Positions 13,300-21,762 of a stretch of 64,000 bases of DNA are shown one piece after another. Source of the stretch: an uncultured Bacteroidota bacterium (GTDB taxonomy: Bacteria; Bacteroidota; Bacteroidia; Flavobacteriales; Flavobacteriaceae); NCBI GenBank assembly GCA_902616905.1, contig CACMUP010000007.1, positions 1-64,000 on the forward strand, in the 5' to 3' direction. The notes below the pieces were generated by a model. It was not told where the DNA came from. It worked only from the letters and a program-made list of their open reading frames with translations, and did no database searches. The position numbers were made by a program, and so were the translations under genes. Every line of letters starts with the position of its first letter. Within the stretch, counting starts at the first letter, position 1.

Positions 13300-13902
13300 T
13301 TATGAAGATTTTCTTCTATTTAATAATATTCTTTCAATATCACTAATTTCAAATCCTTTTGCTTGAAGTAAAATCAATAAATGAAACAATAAGTCTGCAC
13401 TTTCATTCAAAAAACGTTCTGAGTTATTGTCTTTAGCTTCAATAATTGTTTCAACTGCTTCTTCTCCGACTTTTTGAGCCATTTTATTAATACCCTCATT
13501 AAATAGTGAAGAAATATAGCTGCTATCTAGATTTGATGTTTTACGATTGGAAATTATATTTTCTAATTCTGAAAAAAATCCAAAATGACTATTATTTAAT
13601 TCTCCCCAACAGGTATCATTCCCCGTGTGACATGCTGGACCCATTGGTTCAACTTGAATTAATAATGCATCCTTGTCACAATCTTCTTTCAGTGTAATAA
13701 GCTTTAAGTAATTTCCACTCTCCTCACCTTTTGTCCATAATCTTTTTTTTGATCTACTATAGAAGGTTACTTTTTTGGTTTTTTTTGTTATGTTGAGAGC
13801 TTCTTCGTTCATATATCCAAGCATTAAAACTTTTTTTGTTGTATTATCTTGTATAATGGCGGGTATTAAATTGTCATGTGATTTTGAAAAATTTAGTTTC
13901 AT
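13300..13902 (-). CDS. hisIE: Bifunctional phosphoribosyl-AMP cyclohydrolase / phosphoribosyl-ATP pyrophosphatase
   Basis: VLMLGYMNEEAL, TFYSRSKKRLWTKGEESGNYL, GPACHTGNDTCW, QKVGEEAVETIIEA. Confidence 0.97.
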   Translation of the reverse strand: MKLNFSKSHDNLIPAIIQDNTTKKVLMLGYMNEEALNITKKTKKVTFYSRSKKRLWTKGEESGNYLKLITLKEDCDKDALLIQVEPMGPACHTGNDTCWGELNNSHFGFFSELENIISNRKTSNLDSSYISSLFNEGINKMAQKVGEEAVETIIEAKDNNSERFLNESADLLFHLLILLQAKGFEISDIERILLNRRKSS

Positions 13903-13907
13903 ATTTG

Positions 13908-14663
13908 TTAGATTCTTACAGCAATATTCTGTCTTTTTAATTTATTTTTTAATGAAGGAATACTGATTTTACCAAAGTGAAAAACACTTGCCGCAAGAGC
14001 TGCATCAGCTTTTCCAACTGTAAATGTATCTTTAAAATGTTCCTCAGTACCAGCTCCACCAGATGCAATAATAGGAATATTAAGTTGATCTGATAATTTA
14101 GCAATAGCATCATTAGCAAATCCATTTTTAGTTCCATCATTATCCATTGAGGTAAATAGTATTTCTCCAGCTCCTCTACTTTCTACTTCTTTTGCCCATT
14201 TGAAAAGGTCAATATTTGTTGAAACCTTGCCTCCTACTAAATGCACTTTCCATTTATTATCAATTTTTTTTGCATCTATCGCTACCACTAGACACTGACT
14301 TCCATAATGAGTAGAAACTTCATTAATCAATTCAGGTCGATAAACAGCAGAGCTATTTATTGAAACTTTGTCTGCACCATTTTTTAAAAGAAGAGATACA
14401 TCTCTTATTGATCTAATTCCTCCGCCTACAGTAAATGGTATATCTAAGGAAGCAGCAACATCTAGCACGAGTTTAGACAAAGTTTTTCTTTTTTGTTCGG
14501 TTGCAGATATATCCAAAAAGACTAATTCGTCTGCTCTTTCATTTGCATATTTCTCAGCAAGTTCTACAGGATTACCTGCATCACGAAGATTTTTAAAATT
14601 TACTCCTTTAACTGTGCGACCGTCTTTTATATCTAAGCATGGAATAATTCTTTTGGTTAACAT
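13908..14663 (-). CDS. hisF: Imidazole glycerol phosphate synthase cyclase subunit
   Basis: [48 protein letters not shown]. Confidence 0.98.
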
Positions 14664-14664
14664 A

Positions 14665-15174
14665 TTAATTGTTTTTTTTATTTAGATCTTGACCTTTATA
14701 AAATTCCAAATCTGACTTAGTAAGAAATTTAACCCAAAATGCAATTTGACCTACATGATAAGAAAAATGTTCTACGGCATGTAATAATACACCTATACCA
14801 GAAAGCTTATACCCTTGTACTTCACGTAATTTTAGATAATTTGAAGACTGTGCTGAATCAATAACATTTAAAGAGCTATTAATTGTAGCATCTAACTTTT
14901 TTAATAACTCTGTTTTATTGTACTTTTTATTTATCTCAAACTCCTTATCGCGATCTCTATAATCTATATTCTCTCCTAAAGAAGATATAATATACTGGGT
15001 CATATTACCATTTATATGTAAAATTTGGTTCCCCAATGAAATACCATTTGAAATAGGTAACTTCCAAATATGTTCCTCTTTAGTCTTGTCAAATGCTAAA
15101 TGAACCATTCTTTGACCTTCTTTTAGTCGAAATACTGTATTTTTTTTGAATTCATAAATGAAATCACTCATCAC
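14665..15174 (-). CDS. DinB-like (DUF1572-like) protein embedded in the his operon
   Basis: [20 protein letters not shown] ... [20 protein letters not shown], DinB/YfiT metal-site His pattern; start overlaps the hisA 3' end by 11 bp. Confidence 0.8.
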
Positions 15175-15895
15175 TTTTGTTTAAAATAAAATTTTCTAAT
15201 TGTTTTAAACTAATTTTATTTTCATATATAGCTTTCCCTATTATAACTCCATAACAACCCATATCGTCAAGTTTTAGTATGTCATCATATTCTGAAACTC
15301 CTCCTGATGCTACAAGATTTATCTTGTAAGCATCTATTATATTACTGTATAATTTAAATGATGGTCCTTCCAACATACCATCTTTACTTATATCTGTGCA
15401 AGTTACCGTCTCTATACCTTTATTTTGATAAAAATTTATTAAACCAAAAATTGATTGATTTGAAGTATTAATCCAGCCATCAGTTGCAATATACTTACCT
15501 TTAACGTCAGCACCTAATATAATTTTTTCAGACCCATAATTTAAGATCCACTCACAAAATATCTCTGGTTGTTTTACAGCAATACTTCCACATGTTACTT
15601 GATTTGCACCACAATTAAAGGCTAAGTTTAAATCATTTTCAGTTTTGATACCACCACCGAAGTCAATTTTTAAATTCGTTTTAGAAGCTATATTCTCTAA
15701 AATACTATAGTTAATAATATGATTTGATTTAGCTCCATTTAAATCTACTAAATGTAAAAACTCAATACCATGGTCTTCAAAAGTTTTTGCAACTTCTAAT
15801 GGATTTTGATTGTATGTAATCTGTGAATTATAATTTCCTTTCGAAAGACGAACGCATTTCCCATCTATTATATCTATTGCTGGAATTATTTTCAT
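15164..15895 (-). CDS. hisA: ProFAR isomerase
   Basis: [62 protein letters not shown]. Confidence 0.98.
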
Positions 15896-16470
15896 ATTGT
15901 TAAAAAATTTTCTAAAATTTTAATTCCAGGTTTGCTGCTTTTTTCAGGATGGAATTGTACACCATAAAAGTTATTTTTTTGTATTGCCACACTGAAAAAT
16001 CCATTATAATTGCTTTCAGCAATTGTTTCAGGTATTATTGGTACGTAAAAAGAATGCACTAAATACATAAATTCATTATCAATAACATTATTAAAAAGTT
16101 GTGATTTTAAATTTGTAATATTATTCCATCCCATATGTGGTACTTTAACCTTATTTGATATTTTTTTCACATCTGTTGAAATTATGTCTAAGCAGTCTAC
16201 ATTTCCTTCTTCAGTTGATCGACAAAAAAGTTGCATTCCAAGGCAAATACCTAAAACAGGTTGTTTTAAATTTGGTATTATTTTATCTAATCCTGTTTTT
16301 TTAAGATTTTGCATAGCATTTAAGGCAGCACCTTGTCCTGGGAAAATAATTTTTTCAGCACTTTGAATCTCTTCAATATTAGATGTAAGGGAGCTATTTA
16401 CTCCAAGCCGGTCTAATGCAAATTGAAGGCTTCGAGTATTTCCAGCGTTATAATCAACGATTGCAATCAT
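15892..16470 (-). CDS. hisH: Imidazole glycerol phosphate synthase glutamine amidotransferase subunit
   Basis: [45 protein letters not shown]. Confidence 0.98.
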
Positions 16471-16475
16471 ATCAA

Positions 16476-17603
16476 TTACAAGCTTCCTTTGGTTGTTGGC
16501 AATATCATTTTGTTTGGGTCTCGCTTAATAGCAAACTTAATTGCTTTGGCAAAAGCCTTAAAAATAGCTTCAATTTTATGATGCTCATTACTCCCTTCAG
16601 CTTTAATATTTATGTTTGCTTTAGCCCCATCACTAAATGATTTAAAGAAATGCGCAAACATTTCTGTTGGCATTTTTCCAATCATTTCACGTTTGAAATC
16701 TGCTTCCCAGACTAACCAATTCCTCCCTCCAAAATCAATTGACACTTGAGCTAGACAATCATCCATTGGTAGTGAAAAACCGTATCTTTCTATTCCTATT
16801 TTTTCTCCCAATGCTGAATAGAACGCCTCACCTAGGATAATGGCTGTGTCTTCAATAGTGTGGTGCTCGTCTACCTCTAAATCTCCATGAACCGACAACT
16901 TGATATCAATATTACCATGACGAGCAATTTGATTTAACATATGATCAAAAAATATTATGCCTGTATTTATATCACTTTCACCATTACCGTCTAAATTTAG
17001 ATCTAAATTTATCTTAGTTTCATTAGTTATCCTTTTTTTTGTAACTACTCGTTGTTTTAATTTTAGAAAAGAATAAATATCATTCCATTTTGTAGTTTTT
17101 AATGATATCGAGTTATTTAAATTTTCATTTATTTCCTTTCCAACTAATTTTTCATTATTAGAAATAAAAATTCCATTGGCACCAAGGTTTAATGCAAGTT
17201 CCATGTCTGTTAATCGATCCCCAATAACATATGAGTTCTTTAAGTCATAATTTTTATTATTCATATATTTTTTCAATAGTCCTATTCCTGGTTTTCTTGT
17301 TGGAGCATTATCACTTGGAAGAGTTTTGTCAATATATACATCATCAAAAATGATTTCTTCATTCTCAAAACACTTTAGTATAAATCTATGTGTTGGCCAA
17401 AACGTGATTTCGGGAAAACTTGGAGTACCTAAGCCGTCTTGATTAGTTACCATTACCAATTCAAAATCTAATTCTTTTGATATTTTCCCTAAAAAGTTAA
17501 AAACTCCAGGATAAAAAATTAACTTGTCAAATGAATCAAGTTGATAATTTTCTGGCTCTAATACTAGAGTTCCGTCTCTATCTAAAAAAAGTATTTTTTT
17601 CAT
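16476..17603 (-). CDS. hisB: Bifunctional histidinol-phosphatase / imidazoleglycerol-phosphate dehydratase
   Basis: N-terminal HAD domain ([12 protein letters not shown]); C-terminal IGPD ([34 protein letters not shown]). Confidence 0.98.
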
Positions 17604-18649
17604 AAATTTTCCATTTTTCTCATTGCAAAAAGTAGTTTTTTATTTTCATCTTTTAGACCTACAGTTATTCTTAATGTGTTTTCACAATAAATATTTTTGG
17701 ATGAATTCCTTACAACAATACCATGATCTAGTAATTGTTTATAACGCATTAAACTATTATCAACACGAATAAGAATAAAATTTGCATCTGAAGGGAAAAC
17801 TGATTCAACGAATTTAATTTTACGAAGTGAAATTTCTAATTTTTTACGCTCTCTTAATATAATTTTAACCTGATTTTTAACTAGAACTTGTTCATTAATT
17901 CTTTTCAATGCAGCATTTATTGTTAAAGAATTCAAATTATATGGAGCTTTAAACTTATTTAAGTAATTGATAAGATCTGAATTTGCAAATGTCATACCTA
18001 ATCTTGCTCCAGCCATACCTTGTGCTTTTGAAAATGTTTGACATACAGCTAAATTGGGGTAATGTTTTAAAAGTTTTATGAATGATTCGTGATTTGAAAA
18101 TTCTATATATGCTTCATCAATCACAACTATTCCATTAAATGCCTTAATAATTTTTTTTATTTCAATTGGATCAAAATTGTTTGCTGTAGGATTATTTGGA
18201 GTTGGAATAAATATTACTTTGGTATTTGTTTTAGCTGAATCTATTATTGCTTTTGTATTTAATTTAAAACCTAGCTTCAAAGGTACTTCATTAATACCAA
18301 CACCTAATATTTGAGCTGAAACTTTGTACATACCAAATGTGGGTGGAACTATCATTATCTCATCCCTACCTGGTTCGCAGCAAGCCATAATAATTTGTGT
18401 TATAAATTCGTCACTACCGTTGCTTAAATACAATTGGTTAGGAGTAACATTTTTCCATTTAGATATTTTTTGTTTTAATTGCTCTTGTAAGGGATCAGGA
18501 TATCTGTTTGTTGAGGATTGAAAAGGATTTTCATTTGCATCAATTAAAATCATTTCACGCCCCTCTCTTAAATATTCTTCACGAGCAGATTTATATGGAA
18601 TTAATTTTAATAAACTTGCTCTAAAAAATTTAGTAATATCAGTTTTCAT
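17600..18649 (-). CDS. hisC: Histidinol-phosphate aminotransferase
   Basis: [59 protein letters not shown] site. Confidence 0.97.
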
Positions 18650-19931
18650 TTCTTAATTTTTTCAAACGGACACTTATTGCATTTTTATGTGCAATCAAAC
18701 CCTCTGCTTCAGCCATTAATTCGACACTTTCACCTATATTTTTTATTCCATTTTTGGAGATTTTTTGAAAAGTTATTGCTTTACAAAAACTATCTAAATT
18801 CACACCACTGAATTGTTTAGCAAAACCATTTGTTGGAAGGGTGTGATTTGTTCCAGACGCGTAATCTCCAGCACTTTCAGGCGTATAATTGCCTATGAAT
18901 ACTGATCCCGCATTTCTAATTCTATCAATGTAATATGATTCATTTTCTACACAAATAATATAATGTTCCGGACTGTAGTCATTAATAAAGTTTGTTGCAA
19001 ATTCATCATTTTGAAAGACAATCATTTTCGAATTTGCTAATGCTTTTTCTGCTATTTTTTTTCTTGGTAAATTTTCCAATTGTTTGACAATAGATACATT
19101 AACTTTTTCGATAATACTTTCTTTAGTGGTTACCAAAATTACCTGGCTATCTGATCCATGTTCCGCTTGAGACAAAAGATCTGATGCTATAAAATCTGGG
19201 TCTGCTGTTTCGTCAGCAGCTATTAGCAATTCGCTTGGTCCAGCTGGTAAATCTATAGCCACATTGTATTTAGTTGCTAATTGCTTTGCTGCTGTTACAT
19301 ATTGATTCCCAGGTCCGAATATTTTATAGACTTTTGGAATTTTTTTGGTTCCAAACGTCATTCCAGCGATAGCTTGTATTCCACCTACTTTAAAAATTTT
19401 GCTTATTCCACAAAGTTGTGCTGTATACAAAATTTCAGCTGGTAAACTTCCTCTTCTATTTGGGGGTGAGCATATTATAATCTCTTTACATCCAGCTATT
19501 GTAGCAGGTATAGCTAACATTAAAATAGATGAGAATAAAGGGGCTGATCCTCCCGGTATATATAACCCTACTTTATCAATTGCATATTTTTTTTGCCAAC
19601 ACTTTACACCCTTAATTGTCTCAACCTGAATAGTTTTCGTTCTCTGAGATCTATGGAAGATTTCTATATTTTTTTTAGCTTGCTCAATAGCTTTTTTTAG
19701 TTTTTTAGATATTGATTTATTAGCTAGTAATATTTCATCTTTTGTTACCTGAAAGTTTTCAATTTGAATTTGATCAAATCTTTCGGTGTAATCTAAAATC
19801 GCTTTATCACCTGCTTTTTGTATATGATCAAAAACTTCTGAAACAAGGGTTAATAATTTATCGTTGTTTACGGAAGGGCGTTTAATTATTTCATCCCAAC
19901 TTTCAGCTTTTGGATTTATAATTTTTTTCAT
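18639..19931 (-). CDS. hisD: Histidinol dehydrogenase
   Basis: VGLYIPGGSAPLFSSILMLAIPA, GPGNQYVTAAKQLA, SAGDYASGTNHTLPTNG. Confidence 0.98.
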   Translation of the reverse strand: MKKIINPKAESWDEIIKRPSVNNDKLLTLVSEVFDHIQKAGDKAILDYTERFDQIQIENFQVTKDEILLANKSISKKLKKAIEQAKKNIEIFHRSQRTKTIQVETIKGVKCWQKKYAIDKVGLYIPGGSAPLFSSILMLAIPATIAGCKEIIICSPPNRRGSLPAEILYTAQLCGISKIFKVGGIQAIAGMTFGTKKIPKVYKIFGPGNQYVTAAKQLATKYNVAIDLPAGPSELLIAADETADPDFIASDLLSQAEHGSDSQVILVTTKESIIEKVNVSIVKQLENLPRKKIAEKALANSKMIVFQNDEFATNFINDYSPEHYIICVENESYYIDRIRNAGSVFIGNYTPESAGDYASGTNHTLPTNGFAKQFSGVNLDSFCKAITFQKISKNGIKNIGESVELMAEAEGLIAHKNAISVRLKKLRNEN

Positions 19932-20783
19932 TTACAGAACTATTTTTTCTATTGGACATACTAAAATGTCTTCTGCTCCATTTTCCTTAAGTTGATCAAT
20001 TACCTCCCAAAAATCTTCTGAATTAATGACAGAGTGCATTGAACTCCATCCTTTTTTAGCTAAGGGTAATACTGTAGGGCTTTTCAATACTGGTAAAATT
20101 GAACTTATCACATTAATTTTTTTATTAGGCACATTAAGTAAAACATATCTTGATTTCTTAGCGCGAAGTACTGATTTTATTCTAAAAAGTAACTTGTTTA
20201 CTAATTCAATTTGTTCATTTGTCAATTCATTTGATTTAACCAACACAGCTTGTGAATTCGCAATTAACAAAACCTCCTTTAAATTATTCTTAAAAAGGGT
20301 ACCACCACTAGAAACAATATCACATATCGCATCCGCTAATCCAATATTTGGAGCTATTTCAACAGACCCATTAATAACATGTAATTCAGCATTAATATTA
20401 TTTTTATTTAAAAATGTTTTAACTGTATTTGGATAAGATGTTGCGATTCTTTTATCATTAAGATCACCTATATCTTTAAACTCAACTTCTTTAGGGAAAG
20501 CAATTGAAACTCTACATTTTGAAAAACCTAACTTCTCAATTATCTCTAAATCAGATCCCTTTTCTTCTATTAAATTTTCTCCAACAATAGCTAAGTCAAC
20601 CACACCATCTCGCAAATATTGAGGTATATCGCTATTCCTTAAAAAAAACACCTCGACAGGAAAGTTTGTAGCAGATGTTTTAAGCTGATCTTTTCCGTTT
20701 TCAATATTAATGCCACAATCTTTTAATAAACTTAAAGAATCACTATTAAGTCTTCCTGTTTTTTGTATAGCTAGTCTAATCAT
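19932..20783 (-). CDS. hisG: ATP phosphoribosyltransferase (long form)
   Basis: MIRLAIQKTGRLNSDSLSLLKDCGI, DLAIVGENLIEEKG, ADAICDIVSSGGTLFKNNLKE. Confidence 0.97.
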   Translation of the reverse strand: MIRLAIQKTGRLNSDSLSLLKDCGINIENGKDQLKTSATNFPVEVFFLRNSDIPQYLRDGVVDLAIVGENLIEEKGSDLEIIEKLGFSKCRVSIAFPKEVEFKDIGDLNDKRIATSYPNTVKTFLNKNNINAELHVINGSVEIAPNIGLADAICDIVSSGGTLFKNNLKEVLLIANSQAVLVKSNELTNEQIELVNKLLFRIKSVLRAKKSRYVLLNVPNKKINVISSILPVLKSPTVLPLAKKGWSSMHSVINSEDFWEVIDQLKENGAEDILVCPIEKIVL

Positions 20784-20794
20784 AGTTTCAAATT

Positions 20795-20825
20795 AAAAAA
20801 CCCGTTTGATAACTCAAACGGGTTT
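20795..20825 (-). terminator. Rho-independent terminator/attenuator hairpin upstream of hisG
   Basis: Minus strand: AAACCCGTTTGA-GTTA-TCAAACGGGTTT followed by TTTAATT. Perfect 12-bp stem, 4-nt loop and U-tract, only ~12 nt before the hisG ATG. Confidence 0.9.
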
Positions 20826-20849
20826 AGTATAAATACATAATACATCTAA

Positions 20850-20906
20850 CTAAATCACATTTGAGTAATATAAATTTTGATGATTATGATGTTTTTTTTG
20901 TTTCAT
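20850..20906 (-). CDS. hisL: his operon leader peptide, MKQKKHHNHQNLYYSNVI (18 aa)
   Basis: Hand translation of the minus strand: ATG AAA CAA AAA AAA CAT CAT AAT CAT CAA AAT TTA TAT TAC TCA AAT GTG ATT TAG. His codons at positions 6, 7 and 9, upstream of the terminator hairpin and hisG. Confidence 0.85.
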   Translation of the reverse strand: MKQKKHHNHQNLYYSNVI

Positions 20907-20912
20907 TAGGTA

Positions 20913-20942
20913 CAAATATATTTAAAATATTTAATTAACAAA
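20913..20942 (-). promoter_or_regulatory. Putative Bacteroidota-type promoter of the his operon
   Basis: Minus strand TTTG (20942-20939), 18-nt spacer, TATATTTG (20920-20913), 6 nt before the hisL ATG; matches TTG-N17-23-TAnnTTTG. Confidence 0.6.
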
Positions 20943-20943
20943 T

Positions 20944-21762
20944 TTATTGGTTCCCAAGAATAATTGGAAGTCCTCCTTCACCACTTCCTATAACAATAAC
21001 TTTTGAATTTGGAGATTCAGATAGCTTAGTAGTTGCTTCAATTCCTTTTTCTTGAAGTATTTTGTCTGTTAATGATGCACTTAAAATGCGGTTTGCAGTA
21101 GCTTTACCTTCTGCATCGATACGCTGACGTTCAGCTTCTTGTTTCGCTTTTTCCAATCTAAACTCATATTCTAGTGCCTCTTGTTCTTGACGCAGTTTAC
21201 GTTCAATAGCTTCTTTTATTGCCATTGGTAGAGTAACATCTCTTACAAGTACAGCATTTACTTGAATATGTTGGGATTCCACATTTTTTACAGTTTCCTC
21301 AAATATTTCATTTTGAATTGCATCTCGTTTTGTAGAATATAATTGTTCAGGGGTATATCTTCCAACAACTGATCTAGCAACAGCCCGAATTTGTGGTATT
21401 AAAACTATATTAACATAATTCTCTCCTTTCGTCTTGTGTAACAATCCTAATTCGTTGTATTTAGGCTGATACAAAACTGATACGTCCAATGATATTTCAA
21501 GTCCATTTGATGAGAGTACTTGCATATTTCCCTCAAAAAATTCTTGTTGTTTTACGTTATAAATAAACACCTTATTCCACGGTGCTATAATATGAAATCC
21601 TTCTCCCAATGGAGCATCATCAGTAACAACGCCCCCACCAAAAGTTTTAAATAAAACTCCTGCCTCTCCATATCCAATATTAATTGAAGATTTTGAAACG
21701 AAAATTAGTATTACAATCGATAGTAACACTACTGGTAATCCAATTTTAGGTAATTTTTGCAT
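20944..21762 (-). CDS. Prohibitin family (SPFH/band 7) membrane protein
   Basis: GYGEAGVLFKTFGGGVVTDDAPLGEGFHIIAPWNKVFIYNVKQQEF; RAVARSVVGRYTPEQLYSTKRDAIQNEI; coiled-coil EALEYEFRLEKAKQEAERQRIDAEG. Confidence 0.92.
   Translation of the reverse strand: MQKLPKIGLPVVLLSIVILIFVSKSSINIGYGEAGVLFKTFGGGVVTDDAPLGEGFHIIAPWNKVFIYNVKQQEFFEGNMQVLSSNGLEISLDVSVLYQPKYNELGLLHKTKGENYVNIVLIPQIRAVARSVVGRYTPEQLYSTKRDAIQNEIFEETVKNVESQHIQVNAVLVRDVTLPMAIKEAIERKLRQEQEALEYEFRLEKAKQEAERQRIDAEGKATANRILSASLTDKILQEKGIEATTKLSESPNSKVIVIGSGEGGLPIILGNQ

Follow-up and report, generated by a model that had tools for sequence, protein, structure and literature searches.

The his operon in the analyzed DNA, which belongs to the genome of a marine member of Flavobacteriaceae, is very likely controlled by a ribosome-mediated (leader-peptide) transcription attenuator that senses charged tRNA-His. 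Leader-peptide attenuation is a textbook mechanism, best known from Proteobacteria. Ahead of hisG, we found a short open reading frame (ORF) with cognate codons and, between this ORF and the first gene of the operon, an intrinsic terminator; sequence, covariation, geometry, and constrained folding point to a mutually exclusive antiterminator strand that a stalled ribosome would leave free and a ribosome at the stop codon would cover. An attenuator of this kind had been proposed in a preliminary description of the sequence, and the conservation of the elements, their covariation, and their fitting geometry support that proposal. In what follows, “the window” refers to the whole 64,000-nt stretch of DNA that was analyzed; all of its features described here lie on the minus strand.

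Organization of the leader and of the his operon

The first gene of the operon, hisG, occupies positions 19932..20783 (NCBIfam TIGR00070) and is followed by hisD, hisC, hisB, hisH, hisA, a DUF1572 gene, hisF, and hisIE at 13300..19931. Judged by NCBIfam and Pfam, the operon downstream of the leader is complete, with the order hisG-D-C-B-H-A-(DUF1572)-F-IE. The DUF1572/DinB-like gene (14665-15174) is located inside the operon, with hisA and hisF as its neighbors.

The leader ORF, MKQKKHHNHQNLYYSNVI, comprises 18 codons from ATG to TAG (20906-20850; stop codon at 20852-20850) and contains the run CAT CAT AAT CAT, with His at codons 6, 7, and 9. It is preceded by a −7 promoter box, TATATTTG (20913..20920), which ends 6 nt before the leader ATG and corresponds to the Bacteroidota consensus TAnnTTTG, as given in PMC9723704 and PMC7366714. 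A possible −33 element, TTTG (20939..20942), is located 18 nt upstream of the −7 box; this is a weak match of only four bases. Since the leader ORF begins 6 nt after the −7 box, the leader mRNA is probably nearly leaderless, its start site being placed from the position of the box. Among 25 loci of the window’s clade, 23 carry a perfect TAnnTTTG box 4 to 10 nt upstream of the leader start, compared to 0.9% in shuffles; in the xIQLHHH group, this distance is mostly 17 to 19 nt. Only a minority of mRNAs in Flavobacteriaceae are leaderless, amounting to 5.5% in F. psychrophilum (PMC9723704).

Strand 1, CAUAAUCAUC (20888-20879), covers His codons 7 to 9 and the bases that follow. Its protector partner, strand 1′ or GAUGUAUUAUG (20846-20836), is located shortly after the stop codon, and the pairing of the two contains one bulge. 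The antiterminator strand, ACUCAAAUG (20866-20858), lies at the end of the leader ORF. Its alternative partner, CGUUUGAGU (20820-20812), consists of a part of the terminator 5′ arm and two loop bases, yielding an antiterminator of 9 bp that includes one U-G pair. The terminator is built from the 5′ arm AAACCCGTTTGA (20825-20814) and the 3′ arm TCAAACGGGTTT (20809-20798), which form 12 perfect pairs around the loop GTTA, followed by a T-run that reaches 20795. The U-tract, the predicted termination site, spans 20795..20800 and overlaps the end of the stem. When the sequence was checked base by base, the ORF, the terminator, the antiterminator, and the protector pairing were all present at the positions given in the preliminary description.

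Comparison with shuffled sequences showed that the region folds with a z score of −4.0, none of 200 shuffles being equally stable. The antiterminator duplex (−10.3 kcal/mol) was equaled by none of 1000 dinucleotide shuffles, and a His-rich short ORF (at least three His in six codons) appeared in 24 of 5000 shuffles of the window’s upstream region. Taken alone, the protector pairing of the window is unexceptional: its energy is −8.8 kcal/mol, and 79 of 1000 shuffles were as good. The support for this pairing comes from relatives.

Conservation and covariation in Flavobacteriaceae

Leader ORFs were surveyed at 181 loci of the family, drawn from two collections that share some genomes, with one locus cut by a contig end. 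At least three His in six codons were present at 167 loci and two at another 13, and a terminator hairpin with a U-run was found at all 186 loci examined. Both the His-codon ORF and the terminator, whose presence in relatives the preliminary description had treated as a check of its proposal, are kept. After thinning of near-identical loci, a His-rich ORF was detected in 146 of 156 real upstream regions compared to 9 of 1560 dinucleotide shuffles. Named carriers include Kordia, Maribacter, Arenibacter, Tenacibaculum, Winogradskyella, Lutibacter, Dokdonia, and Mesonia.

The hisG gene is present in 102 of the 121 Flavobacteriaceae genomes sampled. A covariance model recovered the element from each of the 102 genomes with hisG and gave a strong match in 1 of the 19 genomes without hisG, a co-occurrence that is partly by construction since some of the 51 sequences from which the model was made come from the genomes later searched. 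Because the model search is partly circular, the ORF survey provides the independent evidence for conservation. The single strong match in the window’s own genome is the window element. Weaker matches elsewhere, where inspected (L292-L296), were ordinary terminators lacking His leaders and were discarded. The one strong match in a genome without hisG (L291; G027 contig 11, 14402-14521) comprises a leader and a terminator that are both intact and stand ahead of a 41-codon hisG remnant; this genome gave no HisG match, and the leader seems to be left over from a his operon that was lost.

In relatives, compensatory changes preserve both alternative pairings, as would be expected from the preliminary description. 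Column-based covariation was unusable for the protector because its pairing register shifts between species. We therefore used an alignment-free swap test, in which the duplex energy of a strand with its own partner is compared to that obtained with the partners of other species. For the protector, own 1:1′ pairs gave −11.5 kcal/mol versus −9.9 kcal/mol with partners from the five nearest relatives (p = 1e-16), the own partner being better in 128 of 156 loci. The own partner was also better for the antiterminator (p = 0.008), while control strand combinations gave null results. With so little variation in the strands of the window’s clade (24 loci), swap tests confined to it did not reach significance (p = 0.09 and 0.48). 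In the 51-sequence alignment, 90.8% of the antiterminator cells are paired, with a covariation score above that of 497 of 500 shuffles, and the base adjoining the antiterminator motif pairs with the second loop base above chance (permutation p = 0.001). The terminator, assessed in the same alignment, scored above 500 of 500 shuffles on every measure.

The strongest single sign of RNA-level selection at the leader end is the motif UCAARCG, which is kept in two reading frames, read as QAR-stop in 113 loci and as SNE-stop in 27. Since the motif is kept across two frames, it is the RNA pairing, and not the peptide, that is selected at this position. Other families of the phylum (f14, f4, f5, and part of f8) have a terminator of altogether different sequence, and there the leader end is still complementary to the 5′ arm.

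Geometry, folding, and alternative explanations

In the window, the last His codon starts 16 nt before the antiterminator strand, and the stop codon is located 14 nt after the start of this strand. Across loci, the distance from the first His codon to the antiterminator strand is 22 to 28 nt (central 90%), and the median distance from the start of the strand to the stop codon is 11 nt. By this geometry, the antiterminator strand would stay accessible while a ribosome is at the His codons and would be covered once it is at the stop codon.

Constrained folding gave a matching picture. With the footprint of a stalled ribosome blocked in the growing RNA, 155 of 156 loci pair the terminator arm with the leader; with the stop-codon footprint blocked in the full RNA, the terminator forms in 156 of 156. 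The full-length RNA folds to the terminator even with a stalled ribosome, the terminator always being the thermodynamic minimum, and therefore antitermination would have to be kinetic, i.e., co-transcriptional. The E. coli his leader subjected to the same folding test likewise prefers the terminator with a stalled ribosome. In untranslated RNA ending before the 3′ arm, the protector and the antiterminator are each favored in about half of the loci.

We propose that transcription begins just before the leader ORF and that a ribosome loads on the almost 5′-terminal AUG. When histidine is low, the ribosome would stall at His codons 6 to 9 and cover strand 1; the antiterminator strand, left free, would pair with the terminator 5′ arm as it emerges, ahead of synthesis of the 3′ arm, allowing read-through into hisG. 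When histidine is ample, the ribosome would proceed to the stop codon and cover the antiterminator strand, so that the terminator would form and the transcript would end near 20795. In an untranslated leader, 1:1′ pairing would lock the antiterminator strand in a loop, again letting the terminator form.

Control could instead be exerted at the translation of hisG, with alternative structures hiding or exposing its start. What makes this scenario worth weighing is an extra strand located after the terminator in L141, L179, L130, L173, and about 30 other relatives, mostly 14 to 47 nt upstream of hisG. Its complementarity to the terminator 5′ arm and loop is exact over up to 15 nt; it covaries with them (p = 4e-7) and may serve a later post-transcriptional step. 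Being made only after read-through, it cannot decide termination in the ordinary way. The window lacks such a strand, whose carriers lie outside the window’s clade; the stem of the window stops short of the hisG start (20783), and a perfect stem that is conserved and followed by a U-run typifies an intrinsic terminator. For the window, we thus regard translational control as very unlikely compared to transcription attenuation.

The hairpin might also be merely the terminator of the upstream Band_7 gene (20944-21762), in which case the His-rich ORF would be a coincidence. The Band_7 gene indeed runs in the same direction as the leader, with 38 nt between its end and the leader ORF, and a co-directional long frame is found upstream in 69 of 86 loci. 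However, 17 of the 86 loci keep the element even though their next upstream long frame has the opposite orientation. Moreover, the His ORF, the antiterminator, and the protector pairing are all conserved and covarying, and the element tracks hisG (102 of 102 versus 1 of 19 genomes). These observations make a mere Band_7 terminator extremely improbable; the attenuator hairpin may additionally terminate the Band_7 transcript.

There is next to no likelihood that the element is a different RNA switch, such as a T-box, by which his genes are controlled in other phyla (PMC9413887), or a metabolite-binding riboswitch: the conserved part is an ORF with in-frame His codons, and no Rfam family, the T-box models included, matched at gathering score either at the site or in 20 related loci, which led us to reject a T-box, a riboswitch, and any known Rfam element. 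The window’s sole Rfam match at gathering score is a Small SRP RNA (RF04183; 47739-47845; 107.8 bits).

Known attenuators and divergent relatives

The attenuator of the E. coli/Salmonella his operon (hisL; RF00514) resembles the window element in having a His-codon leader ORF, a U-tailed terminator just before hisG, an antiterminator that shares the terminator 5′ arm, and a putative protector pairing over the leader ORF, as well as in the predicted logic. The preliminary description had invoked this logic, and the geometry agrees with it for the stalled and stop-codon cases and, less clearly, for the untranslated case; the architecture, however, is simpler. Compared to the E. coli his leader, the window element has fewer strands and three to four interrupted His codons instead of seven consecutive ones, its antiterminator strand is inside the ORF end, and its promoter box nearly touches the leader start, without Shine-Dalgarno context. 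The sequences also differ, as had been anticipated: the RF00514 His_leader model (gathering cutoff, 49 bits) matched neither the window nor any of 20 related loci, while an E. coli control scored 131.6 bits.

Some attenuators of Bacteroidetes/Chlorobi may, reportedly, have been predicted already by Vitreschak et al. (2004, FEMS Microbiol Lett). Whether the leader of this clade is catalogued, a question left open in the preliminary description, has a divided answer. The element is absent from Rfam, but a conserved structured 5′ element upstream of hisG was reported in 2021 in a transcriptome paper on F. psychrophilum, as conserved in other Flavobacteriaceae and lacking an Rfam match (PMC9723704). 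The main text of that paper separately notes strong clues of leader-peptide attenuation upstream of amino acid operons; for hisG, it presents neither a sequence nor a leader peptide or pairing (PMC9723704). Given the same family and the same gene, the reported element is very probably the same as the one in the window. In the passages found, a 2021 survey of his genes in the superphylum discusses leader-peptide attenuation for enterobacteria only (PMC8305728).

Beyond Proteobacteria, His leader peptides are described in Firmicutes, at hisS/hisZ in bacilli (PMC2965389) and at his operons (PMC9413887). By description, they are alike in having a short ORF with a run of His codons and a terminator/antiterminator upstream of the genes, but they belong to a phylum other than that of the window element. 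Bacteroid-trp RNA (RF01692) is, like the window element, a leader element of Bacteroidetes and has been described as resembling the E. coli trp leader transcript; unlike the window element, it is related to Trp and not to His. The RF01692 model (gathering cutoff, 49 bits) gave no match at the window site.

Overall, Flavobacteriaceae and several other families seem to control histidine synthesis as a rule by leader-peptide attenuation. The element is ready to be used as an RNA family for annotation and accounts for short His-rich ORFs upstream of hisG. It also lends itself to testing, in a natural setting, how transcription and translation are coupled in bacteria whose initiation is near-leaderless.

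Some relatives depart further from the window. At all 15 loci of family f21 (L184-L186, L190, L198-L200, L205, L209, L210, L247-L249, L269, and L270) and all 4 of family f3 (L206, L214, L215, and L222), the leader ahead of hisG is His-rich, and no intrinsic terminator was detected. The f21 leader mostly opens with GTG or ATG 4 to 5 nt after a TAnnTTTG-like box and, by this spacing, is apparently leaderless; the spacer between it and hisG is C/T-rich and G-poor. A Rho-type mechanism for these terminator-less leaders is our guess. More tentatively than for the window itself, and with doubt outweighing confidence, one can imagine that his operons across the phylum are under lineage-specific leader-peptide attenuators suited to ribosomes that do not rely on Shine-Dalgarno sequences, with the leader ORF at or near the 5′ end of the mRNA. 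Many Flavobacteriaceae would add to this the strand made after read-through, and f21 would use a different, perhaps Rho-type, termination.

The window’s own genome also contains a trp leader (L280; G000 contig 6, 498-607), which scores 33.1 bits with the Bacteroid-trp model, below the cutoff of 49. It consists of the leader ORF MKNYNVKSWWHNNDS, ending in a stop codon, and a terminator-like hairpin, and the gene that follows resembles trpE.
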